A stretch of 64,000 bases of DNA. Source: Gemmatimonadaceae bacterium. Lineage in GTDB: Bacteria > Gemmatimonadota > Gemmatimonadetes > Gemmatimonadales > Gemmatimonadaceae. The position numbers were made by a program, and so were the translations under genes. Below, piece by piece: positions 15,926 through 20,098 of the stretch (positions are counted from its first letter, which is position 1; each line of letters opens with the position of its first letter). Below the pieces are notes generated by a model. That model ran no database searches. It was not told the origin of the DNA and worked only from the letters and a program-made list of their open reading frames with translations. Location of the stretch: NCBI GenBank assembly GCA_020852815.1, contig JADZAN010000003.1, forward strand, positions 62,001-126,000, in the 5' to 3' direction.

Positions 15926-15958
15926 GCGCCCTCGGCGCTTACTCAGCGCTTCCTCAGC
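15926..15958 (-). repeat. 11-bp tandem duplication at the aguA stop
   Basis: Minus strand: three 11-base units of the form GCGCTGAGGAA / GCGCTGAGTAA / GCGCCGAGGGC. The first carries the real stop (15954-15956) and the second adds TGA and TAA triplets in other frames. Confidence 0.8.
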
Positions 15959-17027
15959 GCGCCGGCGCCGGCTCCTGCTGGGACAGGCAGTGCAGCGTGC
16001 CGAGGCCCCACACCAGGTCGACCGAATGGATCCCCACGACCTGTCGGTCGGGGAAGCACTCGGCGATGATGTTCAGCGCCACGCGGTCGTTGGCGTCGTT
16101 GAACGTGGGGACGAGCACGATGCCGTTGGCGACGTAGAAGTTGGCGTAGCTGGCCGGGAGGCGCTGGCCGTCCATGATGACGGCGCGTGGATAGGGGAGC
16201 GTGACGACGCGCAGCTCGCCCTTCGCCGCCAGTGAGAGGCGCCGCAGGTTGTCGGACGACCGCAGGTGGTTCTCGTCGGCCGGATCGCCCTCGTACGCCA
16301 GCAGCACGGTGAACTCGTCGACAAACCGCGCAATGTCGTCCACGTGCCCGTGCGTGTCGTCGCCCACGCACCCCTCGCCTAACCAGACGGTCTCCCGCAC
16401 GCCCAACACGTCGCGGAAGACCTGCTCGTACCCCTCGCGCGTGAGCCCCGGGTTGCGTTCCTGGATGGGCGACAGGAGGCACTCCTCGGTGACCATGAAC
16501 AACCCGGCGCCGTTGGTCTCGATGGCCCCGCCCTCCAGCACAACGCGGCCAGCACCGTCCGGGCGCATGGGTTCGAAGCGCGGGAGCCCGGTGATCGATG
16601 CGACGGCCGCGCCGACGAGGGCATCCTGCGCGTAGTTGTCGTACTTGGCCCACGCGTTGAACTGCCAGTTGGCGAGGTGGACCTTTCCCTGTGCGTCGTG
16701 CACCGCGGTGGGCGCCGAGTCGCGCAGCCAGACGCGGTCGTTAGGCACCACGTGCAGCCGGTACCCCGACGGGTCGCAGGCGTGCGCTTCCAGCCGGGCG
16801 CGCGCATCCTCACGCACCTGCTCGTCGTGACAGAGGATCTCGACCCGTTCAAACCGGTGCAGCGCGCGCACGATCTCCGCGTAGACCCACGGAATGGGCT
16901 CGAGCTTGCCCGGCCAATCCGGCTCGTGGTGCGGCCACGCGATCCACGTTGCCGTGTGGCGCTCCCACTCCGCCGGCATGCGGAACGGCGTCGCGGAGTT
17001 CGGGAGGCGCTCTTGCGAGGTCGACAT
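15954..17027 (-). CDS. aguA: agmatine deiminase
   Basis: 357 residues from ATG at 17027. Hydrolyses agmatine to N-carbamoylputrescine and ammonia. Family signatures: PAEWERHTATWIAWPH at the start, WLRDSAPT, EGGAIETNG, the catalytic HGHVDD region, and nucleophile Cys 347 in GTLHCLSQQ near the C-terminus. Length matches the family. It begins two bases after the aguB stop, so the two enzymes of the agmatine-to-putrescine route are made together. The stop codon lies in a tandem duplication. Confidence 0.95.
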   Translation of the reverse strand: MSTSQERLPNSATPFRMPAEWERHTATWIAWPHHEPDWPGKLEPIPWVYAEIVRALHRFERVEILCHDEQVREDARARLEAHACDPSGYRLHVVPNDRVWLRDSAPTAVHDAQGKVHLANWQFNAWAKYDNYAQDALVGAAVASITGLPRFEPMRPDGAGRVVLEGGAIETNGAGLFMVTEECLLSPIQERNPGLTREGYEQVFRDVLGVRETVWLGEGCVGDDTHGHVDDIARFVDEFTVLLAYEGDPADENHLRSSDNLRRLSLAAKGELRVVTLPYPRAVIMDGQRLPASYANFYVANGIVLVPTFNDANDRVALNIIAECFPDRQVVGIHSVDLVWGLGTLHCLSQQEPAPAR

Positions 17028-17029
17028 CG

Positions 17030-17962
17030 TCAGGCGCCCAGATATCGCGAGACCATCCCGCCGTACGCATCCACGCGCCGATCGCGCAAGAACGGCCAGT
17101 TGCGCCGCGTCTCCTCGATGAGCCTGGGGTCGCACGTTGCCACGAGCACCGACGGTTCGGTCCCCGCTTCGGCGAGCGGGCGCCCGAACGGATCGTAGAT
17201 GACCGACTGTCCGAAGAACTCGAGTCCGTCGGTCCCCGCTTGTGCCTCGAAGCCCACGCGATTGACGGCCGCGACGAAGACGCCGTTGGCAATCGCGTGC
17301 GAGCGCTGGATGGTGCGCCACGCATTCACCTGCGCCTCGCCGAACGTCGCCTTCTCCCCCGGGTGCCAGGCAATGGCGGTGGGATAGAACAGCACGTCGG
17401 CGCCTAACAACGACGTGATGCGCGCCCCCTCCGGGTACCACTGGTCCCAGCAGATGAGGACCCCGACGGTTCCGTAGCGCGTGTTCCAGACGCGAAAACC
17501 GTTGGCGTCGCGTGAGCGCGCGGCGTCGCGCGGCGCGGTGTCGGCCGCGTCGCCGGGCGTGAAGTAGTACTTCTCCTCGAACAGCGGGTCGTGCGGGATG
17601 TGCATCTTGCGATACACGCCCAGCAAGGTGCCGTCGGCGTCGATGATTGCCGCCGAGTTGCGGTACAGCCCCGCCGCCTGCCGCTCGTACATGGGGACGA
17701 CGAGCACCACCGCGAGTTCGCGCGCCAGCGCCTGCATGCGCTCGGTGGTGGGGCCGGGAATGGGCTCGGCCAGGTCGAACCAGTTGATATCCAGCGACTT
17801 GCAGAAGTATGGCGCGTTGAACAGCTCCTGCAGGCAGATGACCTGCGCGCCGCGCGCATGCGCACTGCGCACGCCGGCAATGGCGCGCGCGACATTGTCC
17901 TCGATCGTGCGCGAGCCGGCGACTTCCTGCACGAGCCCGACGGTGAATGGAGCGTTTGGCAT
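17030..17962 (-). CDS. aguB: N-carbamoylputrescine amidase
   Basis: 310 residues. Nitrilase-superfamily amidase that hydrolyses N-carbamoylputrescine to putrescine, CO2 and ammonia. Catalytic triad Glu 46 (LQELF), Lys 119 (YRKMHIP) and Cys 171 (LICWDQWYPE). The motif YFTPGD and the C-terminal AYGGMVSRYLGA fit the plant/bacterial NCPAH group. First gene of the aguB-aguA pair. Confidence 0.95.
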   Translation of the reverse strand: MPNAPFTVGLVQEVAGSRTIEDNVARAIAGVRSAHARGAQVICLQELFNAPYFCKSLDINWFDLAEPIPGPTTERMQALARELAVVLVVPMYERQAAGLYRNSAAIIDADGTLLGVYRKMHIPHDPLFEEKYYFTPGDAADTAPRDAARSRDANGFRVWNTRYGTVGVLICWDQWYPEGARITSLLGADVLFYPTAIAWHPGEKATFGEAQVNAWRTIQRSHAIANGVFVAAVNRVGFEAQAGTDGLEFFGQSVIYDPFGRPLAEAGTEPSVLVATCDPRLIEETRRNWPFLRDRRVDAYGGMVSRYLGA

Positions 17963-18039
17963 GTGCGGAAACTACTGCCCATCGCACGAATGGTCGACGG
18001 CTCCGGACCGCCCCACCTCGAGCGTTGGCCGCGCCGTGC

Positions 18040-19446
18040 TCACTCGATCAGCGCAATCACCACGTCGTTCACGTTGGTCCCGGTCATCCCCGTGCGCAGG
18101 AGCGCCCCCGCGGCGTCGAGCGCGGGATGGGCATCGTGCGTGGCCAGGTCGCGTTCCGGTGAGCGAGCGCTGAGGGCGATGCGCGCCCAGGTTCGTGCGT
18201 CGACGATGGCGCCGGCGGCGTCGGAGGGGCCGTCGCGACCGTCGGTGCCGGCGGAGAGGATGGTGATGCCGCGCCCTTCCGCACCGGCGTCGTGCAGCGC
18301 GCGCGCGGCGGCCAGCGCCAGCTCCTGCGCGCGCCCCCCAACCCCGGGAGTGGCGCCGAGCGCCACGGTGGTCTCCCCGCCCCACATCAGCGCCAGCCGG
18401 CACGGCGTGGTTAGGGGGCCGGCGGGGGTCGGTCGCCCGGGGAGCGAGGCGCGCGCCACCACCGCGGCGCGCGCAATGGCGTCGCCGGTGGAGCGGGCCG
18501 CGCCAGTGATCGGTGTGGGGGCAACGCGCACCGTGATACCGAGCCCGCGCGCTGCCGCCTGCGCCGCGTCGAGCGCGTCGGCATTGCCAAGGATGATCCG
18601 CGGCTCGATGCCGCGCAGCGTCTCGCTGCCGAGCTTTGGAGTTTCCGGCACCTCCCCGGTGAGCGTATGGTCCAGGTAGGTGCGGACCGGATCGGGAATC
18701 GCCGGCCACAGGCGCTGCTGCTGGGCGAGCTCGATGAGGTCGGCGGCGGAGTGGCGATCCGCGCTGCAGGGGCCGGAGGCAATCGACGCCGGGTCGTCGC
18801 CAATGACGTCCGACGCGATGAGGCAGGTGACGCGCGCGCCGGCCCCACCCAGCGCGGCGCCGAGTCGCCCGCCGCCCCAGCGCATGACGCGCTTGCGGAA
18901 GGCGTTCATCACCGCGATGGGGGCGCCGCTGCGGTGCAATCCCTGGAAGAGCGCGAGCATCGCCGCCTCTGGAATTCCCTCCACCGGCGCCGCCATCAGG
19001 CTCGATGCACCCCCCGACAGCAGGACGAAGACATCGTCACCGGGTTGGATGAGCGGCAGCAGGCGCAACACGGCGTCGGCGGCGTGGCCGGAGCCGGCGC
19101 CAGGGAGCGGGTGGTCGCCGACGATGACCGGAAGCGGGTGGGCCGTGGCACCAGTGTCGCTCGTCACGACGAGCCCTCCCTCGACGATGCGTTCCACCGA
19201 GGCGAGGACGTCGATCGTCGCGCGCGCCATCGGCGCTGCCGCCTTGCCCGTGGCGATGATCCATGGCCGGGCCCCCACCGCGATGCCTAACGCCGAGCGA
19301 TCGAGTGCGCGTTCGGTGGCGTCGTACGGATCGGCGCCGCGCACGGCGGCGGCGAAGAGCGACTCGGCCAGCGTGCGCGCGGCGCTGTGCGCCCCTGGCG
19401 CCGGGCGGGAGGGGGTGGGCGGGACGGGGGCGTCGTCGGCGATCAT
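18040..19446 (-). CDS. glycerate 2-kinase (MOFRL/GckA family)
   Basis: 468 residues from ATG at 19446 (MIADDAPVPP); an in-frame start ten codons upstream is possible. Phosphorylates D-glycerate to 2-phosphoglycerate. Landmarks: GKAAAPMA near 75, the VTSDTGATAHPLPVIVGDHP segment, the LLSGGASSL glycine loop, ASDVIGDDPASIASGP, and the C-terminal MOFRL domain (LALMWGGETTVALG, GGRAQELALAAA, SAGTDGRDGPSDAAGAI). Full length. It follows the peroxiredoxin gene on the same strand but is separated from it by a strong terminator. Confidence 0.93.
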   Translation of the reverse strand: MIADDAPVPPTPSRPAPGAHSAARTLAESLFAAAVRGADPYDATERALDRSALGIAVGARPWIIATGKAAAPMARATIDVLASVERIVEGGLVVTSDTGATAHPLPVIVGDHPLPGAGSGHAADAVLRLLPLIQPGDDVFVLLSGGASSLMAAPVEGIPEAAMLALFQGLHRSGAPIAVMNAFRKRVMRWGGGRLGAALGGAGARVTCLIASDVIGDDPASIASGPCSADRHSAADLIELAQQQRLWPAIPDPVRTYLDHTLTGEVPETPKLGSETLRGIEPRIILGNADALDAAQAAARGLGITVRVAPTPITGAARSTGDAIARAAVVARASLPGRPTPAGPLTTPCRLALMWGGETTVALGATPGVGGRAQELALAAARALHDAGAEGRGITILSAGTDGRDGPSDAAGAIVDARTWARIALSARSPERDLATHDAHPALDAAGALLRTGMTGTNVNDVVIALIE

Positions 19447-19472
19447 GGGTGAAACGTACACCCGAGAAGCGT

Positions 19473-19505
19473 GCAACGCCCCGGCGATGGTTGCCGGGGC
19501 GTTGC
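19473..19505 (-). terminator. strong hairpin between the peroxiredoxin and glycerate kinase genes
   Basis: Perfect 13-bp stem GCAACGCCCCGGC/GCCGGGGCGTTGC with a 7-base loop, six bases beyond the peroxiredoxin stop. The following sequence has only a weak T-rich stretch (ACGCTTCTCG), so it may terminate inefficiently. Confidence 0.75.
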
Positions 19506-19510
19506 AGCTG

Positions 19511-20098
19511 TCAGTCCGAACCGCCCGCTGGCGGCGAGAGCCTGTCGATCACGGCACCCAGCTCCGTGTACGCGTCTGCCGACGACTGCCGGAATGGTTG
19601 CGCCTTGTAGGCGATCTTTCCGTCGGGCCCGATCACGTACAGCGAACGGTTGTCGAGCTTGGTGGCGGGCAAGTACGCCCCGTACAGCTGCCCCACCGCA
19701 CCGTCGCCATCGCTGGCAAAGATGAATGGGAAGTTCGCGTCCTTCATCCACGAAACGAGCGCGGTGTCGGGATCGACGCTGATCCCGATGAGGGTCACCT
19801 TCTTCCCCCCATTGAAGAGCGTGGCGTACTGATCACGGTACGCCTCCATCTGGATCGTTCAACCCTTGGTCCGCGCCTTGAAGAAGAAGGCGAGCACCAC
19901 CGTGTTGCCCCTGTACGAGGAGAGCGTGATCGCCTCCTTCATCGGGCCGTCCATCGTGACGCCGCGCAGCGTGAAGTCGGGTGCCAAGTCGCCAACCCTG
20001 GGCCCGGTCTCTGCCTGCTGGGCGACAGCGGCCGACGGCGCGACGGCGAGTGCGATGGCCGCTGCCATCGTCCCGAGCCTGACCGAAGTGAATCGCAT
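19511..20098 (-). CDS. exported peroxiredoxin with in-frame TGA at the peroxidatic position (probable selenoprotein)
   Basis: Read through TGA at 19859-19861 the gene encodes 195 residues from ATG at 20098. Signal peptide 1-27 (MRFTSVRLGTMAAAIALAV, cleavage near AVAQ), then an AhpC/TSA-BCP-like thioredoxin fold: VGDLAPDFTLRGV, VVLAFFFKARTKG-U-TIQMEAYRDQY, LIGISVDPD, YVIGPDGKIAYKA. In cysteine relatives (pattern PKA-TPGCT-E--FRD) the TGA position is the peroxidatic Cys; here it is codon 80. The frame stays open on both sides with no loss of family similarity, and a SECIS-like hairpin follows. Routine gene calling would give two fragments. Alternative: nonsense mutation or base error. Selenocysteine machinery is not in the window. 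Confidence 0.85.
19823..19844 (-). promoter_or_regulatory. SECIS-like hairpin downstream of the in-frame UGA
   Basis: On the coding strand GGCGUAC-CGUGAUCA-GUACGCC forms a perfect 7-bp stem with an 8-base loop. It begins 14 bases after the UGA, so the loop starts 21 bases after it and has G as its second base. This fits the known bacterial SECIS pattern (short stem inside the coding region, loop G among the first two bases, about 16-37 bases from UGA). Confidence 0.75.

Follow-up and report, generated by a model that had tools for sequence, protein, structure and literature searches.

A peroxiredoxin gene on the minus strand of the window, by which we mean the whole 64,000-nucleotide stretch of Gemmatimonadaceae DNA analysed here, very probably encodes a selenoprotein of the 1-Sec type, presumably exported, in which an internal UGA would be decoded with the help of SelB and a nearby hairpin and the oxidised selenium would be reduced by an external thiol. 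For the central element of this account, the decoding of the TGA at 19859-19861 as selenocysteine, we see hardly any room for doubt, while a function of the protein as a peroxidase is likely. The elements of the locus are as follows:

19511..20098, minus strand: complete gene of the predicted Sec-peroxiredoxin, from ATG 20098-20096 to TGA stop 19513-19511, with 195 residues including Sec80 and full-length homologues
20021..20098, minus strand: putative signal peptide, residues 1-26, MRFTSVRLGTMAAAIALAVAPSAAVA followed by QQ, with a basic n-region, a hydrophobic core and an AxA site as read by eye
19856..19888, minus strand: active-site segment FFFKARTKG-U-T, residues 71-81
19859..19861, minus strand: in-frame TGA, predicted Sec80, which occupies the peroxidatic site of TxxU (here TKGU); TGC or TGT in Cys homologues
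19823..19844, minus strand: putative SECIS hairpin, with 5' arm GGCGUAC at 19844-19838, loop CGUGAUCA at 19837-19830 and 3' arm GUACGCC at 19829-19823

Simple calling of open reading frames yields two fragments of this gene. An earlier note on this DNA had proposed that the two minus-strand frames are joined by one TGA into an AhpC/TSA peroxiredoxin, and the joined frame indeed gives 195 residues, closes with an ordinary TGA stop at 19511-19513 and scores well above the curated cut-off of Pfam AhpC-TSA (PF00578; 90.9 bits against 26), with 63.1 bits for Redoxin. The internal TGA also lies where the note had placed it, at the peroxidatic cysteine, since the same site is TGC or TGT in 18/18 Cys homologues. 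Because TGA serves both as the terminal stop and as an internal codon of one and the same gene, a global reassignment of TGA is disfavoured.

An ordinary Cys peroxiredoxin broken by a nonsense mutation, pseudogenisation or a sequencing error would look similar at a single locus, since the change from TGC or TGT to TGA needs only one base and mechanical ORF calling splits the gene. We therefore turn to the comparative data, which refute this explanation. The survey covered 163 genomes of the order, each at least 90% complete, and found a homologue at E <= 1e-25 in 153 of them. Among the 130 homologue-bearing genomes listed, the TGA form is present in 99, and the remaining 31 have unbroken forms alone. 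A misread TGC or TGT is very unlikely given an identical TGA at the same codon in 99 genomes, and close relatives are not truncated at this point but have a complete frame downstream. TGA use moreover follows the selenocysteine machinery, and the probability left for a broken gene or an error is practically nil.

The link to the machinery is pronounced: among the matches listed, selA was found in 94 of the 99 TGA genomes and in 1 of the 31 Cys-only genomes (Fisher p = 4e-23, a value that is no formal probability because the genomes are related). All five TGA genomes without a selA match have a tRNA-Sec (71-80 bits), which makes an assembly gap the probable reason for the absence of selA. Other families of the class have TGA forms as well, with selA in 20 of the 22 genomes tested; one marker is missing in three class genomes with the TGA form, i.e., a tRNA-Sec match in G279, where SelA is present, and a SelA match in G301 and G274. 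Matches to tRNA-Sec of around 50 bits (G108, G119, and G150) are marginal compared to the clear ones (65-80 bits), and we did not take them as evidence of selenocysteine machinery. A pattern scan of contigs yielded only three distant Cys relatives, since one pattern presupposed that residue 80 is encoded as Cys and the remaining patterns were short. In G024, a genome assembled as a single contig that lacks selA, a Cys form stands in a gene order resembling that of the window (peroxiredoxin, a glycerate kinase-like gene, then nitrilase-type and deiminase-like genes). This Cys form at a syntenic locus suggests that Sec and Cys appear to be exchanged at the orthologous site according to the presence of the machinery. 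Several genomes of genus g20 (G021:C19:42110-43191, L076, L078, and others) carry Cys and Sec peroxiredoxin forms in tandem and thus offer a natural pair for comparison.

The source genome itself (5.38 Mb, completeness rated 100%) contains the full set of selA (532 bits), selB (304 bits, with the C-terminal match inside the same 750-codon frame), selD (385 bits) and a tRNA-Sec (68.5 bits, called tRNA-SeC(tca) by ARAGORN) that lies directly after selD, around 50 nt downstream. The earlier note had named a missing selB or selC among the findings that would overturn the selenocysteine reading, and both genes are present. The selD gene (L063:14577-15617; G000:C10:314601-315515) contains an in-frame TGA of its own at RCAG-U-AAK, a site at which Cys or Sec stands in other SelD proteins, so that its product is, by sequence, probably a selenoprotein as well. 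When the selD region past its TGA was folded, no hairpin stood out clearly in energy terms (z = +1.09).

Misincorporation at selenocysteine codons during selenium shortage is known in other systems and sets a precedent for the idea that the UGA in the peroxiredoxin gene is mainly read through with Cys or another residue and only occasionally with Sec. We consider this very unlikely in a genome with complete selenocysteine machinery and an in-frame TGA in selD itself, all the more as homologues that encode Cys exist and Cys could therefore be encoded directly.

The hairpin downstream of the TGA has the anatomy that had been ascribed to it, i.e., a 7-bp stem and an 8-nt loop with G as the second loop base, starting 14 nt past the UGA. 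Taken by itself, the window hairpin is not significant (z = -1.39; 17/200 shuffles fold equally well), and the case for it is therefore built on a comparison that covers 45 loci with TGA and 18 with Cys. The hairpin is kept in 45/45 TGA loci, with seven pairs in 44 and six in one, at a constant spacing of 14 nt, and RNAalifold recovers the identical hairpin unaided. The outermost stem pair is G-C in 28, U-A in 10 and C-G in 7 of these loci and never mismatched; across loci, 99.7% of the cells in the stem are paired, the covariation score was matched in 0/500 shuffles, and structures slid along the sequence collapse. Since covariation is confined to this outermost pair while the remaining pairs hardly vary, it is strong but local. 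The most divergent hairpin of a TGA locus (L089:1735) has U.C in place of one G-C pair, with loop and spacing intact.

Published rules for bacterial SECIS elements demand a loop of 3-9 nt, an upper stem of 4-16 bp, a G among the first two loop bases, a distance of 16-37 nt from UGA to loop and a minimum free energy of at most -7.5 (PMC13188914). The window hairpin, with a stem of 7 bp, a loop of 8 nt that has G as its second base, 21 nt from UGA to loop and -10.3 kcal/mol, lies within all of these bounds, as do 44/45 TGA loci with constant geometry (7-bp stem, 8-nt loop, and 21-nt spacing) compared to 4/18 Cys loci with varied geometry. An Rfam search of the hairpin (gathering threshold; E <= 10) gave no match to a SECIS family. 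Codon usage over the hairpin is unusual, too: codons +6 to +11 after the TGA are nearly fixed in the TGA set (GCG TAC CGT GAT CAG TAC), with CGT for the Arg at +8 in 44/45 loci versus 43/456 at other Arg positions of the same genes and GAT for the Asp at +9 in 44/45 loci versus 150/524 at other Asp positions. Cys loci favour CGC and GAC at these codons.

Termination followed by reinitiation across short gaps is known in bacteria, and an ATG at codon +4 (19849 in the window), which is present in 44/45 TGA loci, might allow the second piece of the protein to be made in this way if the UGA were a real stop. This Met is, however, found in most of the unbroken Cys homologues too (13/18), and the single predicted fold would require both pieces. 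A stop with reinitiation would also leave the covarying hairpin and the link to the selenocysteine machinery unexplained, and we therefore reject it as exceedingly improbable. By comparative standards, reading this UGA as selenocysteine is close to certain.

The mature window protein has no Cys besides position 80, where Sec is predicted, and no other Cys was found in the core of 63/63 homologues, including 45/45 Sec forms. A resolving Cys is thus absent, and the protein is, as far as sequence can tell, a 1-Sec peroxiredoxin. T77, residue 80 and R151 are invariant among 33 aligned homologues, while the Pro that is expected seven residues ahead of the peroxidatic residue (PxxxTxxC/U) is replaced by Phe in the window protein. 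This Pro is kept in 18/18 Cys forms but in just 8/45 Sec forms, most others having Phe or Tyr; given that the rest of the active site is in place and the family score exceeds its cut-off, we read the Phe as a variant site and not as the mark of another family. The predicted structure (pLDDT 88, with low values at the N-terminal leader) has the archaeal Bcp4 as its top PDB match and mycobacterial AhpE among the next ones (TM around 0.81-0.86 by target length, around 30% identity), which suggests a peroxiredoxin fold near the 1-Cys AhpE and Bcp types. Like 1-Cys AhpE, the window protein lacks a resolving Cys, but it would differ from both AhpE and Bcp4 in its peroxidatic Sec and its probable signal peptide. 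Leaders resembling MRFTSVRLGTMAAAIALAVAPSAAVA are also found in homologues, and we conclude from inspection by eye that the protein is probably exported.

In a maximum likelihood tree, the 45 Sec forms cluster with 96/96 support, and a single long-branch Cys form (L057:1743 from G029) falls inside the group with unsure placement; it is possibly a Sec-to-Cys reversion or an artefact of the tree. The source genome encodes a second peroxiredoxin (L021; G000:C19:101220-101672) with the motif FTSVCTTEMC, i.e., a second Cys at +5.

How such a protein would work can be outlined from these features. The hairpin 14 nt past the codon would recruit SelB with Sec-tRNA-Sec so that the UGA at 19861-19859 is decoded as Sec, a step to which the conserved anatomy and the machinery point. 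Outside the cytoplasm, the selenolate of Sec80, kept in place by the TxxU Thr and the invariant Arg151, may then reduce H2O2 or organic peroxides. As a resolving Cys is absent, the resulting selenenic acid would have to be reduced by a separate thiol, and the gene neighbourhood suggests a CcdA/DsbD-type carrier with a TlpA-like thioredoxin as the top candidate for this reductant.

Genes for TlpA-like and/or CcdA proteins are neighbours of the peroxiredoxin gene in at least 22/45 TGA loci; at these loci a TlpA-like thioredoxin gene adjoins, as does one for a CcdA/DsbD_TM membrane protein where the contig is long enough. The source genome has a CcdA/DsbD_TM and TlpA-like pair as well, which is unlinked to the peroxiredoxin (C5:36923). 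The peroxiredoxin gene of the source genome, like that of its closest relatives, instead adjoins a glycerate kinase-like gene; in the window, the peroxiredoxin is followed on the same strand (15954-19476) by this glycerate kinase-like gene (DUF4147/MOFRL), a nitrilase-type carbon-nitrogen hydrolase and an agmatine deiminase-like gene (PAD_porph). From the neighbourhood we lean slightly toward the CcdA-TlpA route as the one that reduces the Sec peroxiredoxin.

A precedent is the ScsB-TlpA-PprX chain of Caulobacter crescentus, which reduces an envelope peroxiredoxin (Cho et al. 2012, cited here from the review PMC5403849). Common to both systems would be an envelope peroxiredoxin, a TlpA-like thioredoxin in the periplasm and a transmembrane electron carrier related to DsbD, CcdA and ScsB, the link being drawn here from gene neighbourhood. 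In our case the peroxiredoxin would be a selenoprotein, and its candidate carrier is short and of the CcdA/DsbD_TM type. A Sec protein of the same fold might alternatively serve mainly as an envelope redox relay or in thiol/selenol exchange, or might depend on another reductant, which would fit the fact that TlpA-like and CcdA genes lie nearby in only around half of the sampled loci and not in the source genome. The invariant peroxiredoxin active-site residues (TxxU and Arg151), the 1-Cys peroxidases among the nearest folds and the Caulobacter chain as a precedent make these alternatives rather unlikely, and we continue to favour a peroxidase.

Peroxiredoxins with a TxxU motif are an established family of selenoproteins that includes PrxU of Eubacterium acidaminophilum and belongs to PF00578/COG1225 Bcp (PMC13188914, PMC9312934), and the novelty that had been claimed for this gene was thus overstated. 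The window protein shares with this family the AhpC/TSA fold, the predicted peroxidatic Sec in TxxU and a bacterial SECIS closely downstream. Its lineage differs in being probably exported, in having a core without a second Cys and in its spread through a class of Gemmatimonadota, and the reported PxxxTxxU motif is intact in no more than the 8/45 Sec forms with Pro. The NCBIfam model of PrxU (NF040737) gives the window protein 60.1 bits against a cut-off of 270, and no other model of an NCBIfam scan scored above its cut-off. Other Prx-like selenoproteins (the UxxC thiol:disulfide oxidoreductase, UGC Prx-like, UxxS AhpC/TSA, and Prx-SUH) have Sec motifs different from TxxU. In the open-access literature that we searched, no selenoprotein like this one is named for Gemmatimonadota. 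What is new is therefore a lineage-wide, apparently exported TxxU variant that escapes the current NCBI models.

Annotation that treats TGA only as a stop would break the gene in all genomes with the TGA form. The lineage adds a class-wide group of likely extracytoplasmic selenoproteins from Gemmatimonadota that is undescribed in the searched literature and models. A broader proposal, for which we see the chances as evenly balanced, is that Gemmatimonadota maintain a selenium-dependent peroxide defence of the envelope, in which an exported peroxiredoxin of the 1-Sec type, its active-site Pro relaxed, is recycled through a CcdA-TlpA electron chain. The paired Sec and Cys forms, including the syntenic Cys form of G024, constitute a natural test of what Sec contributes to the benefit of a peroxiredoxin.
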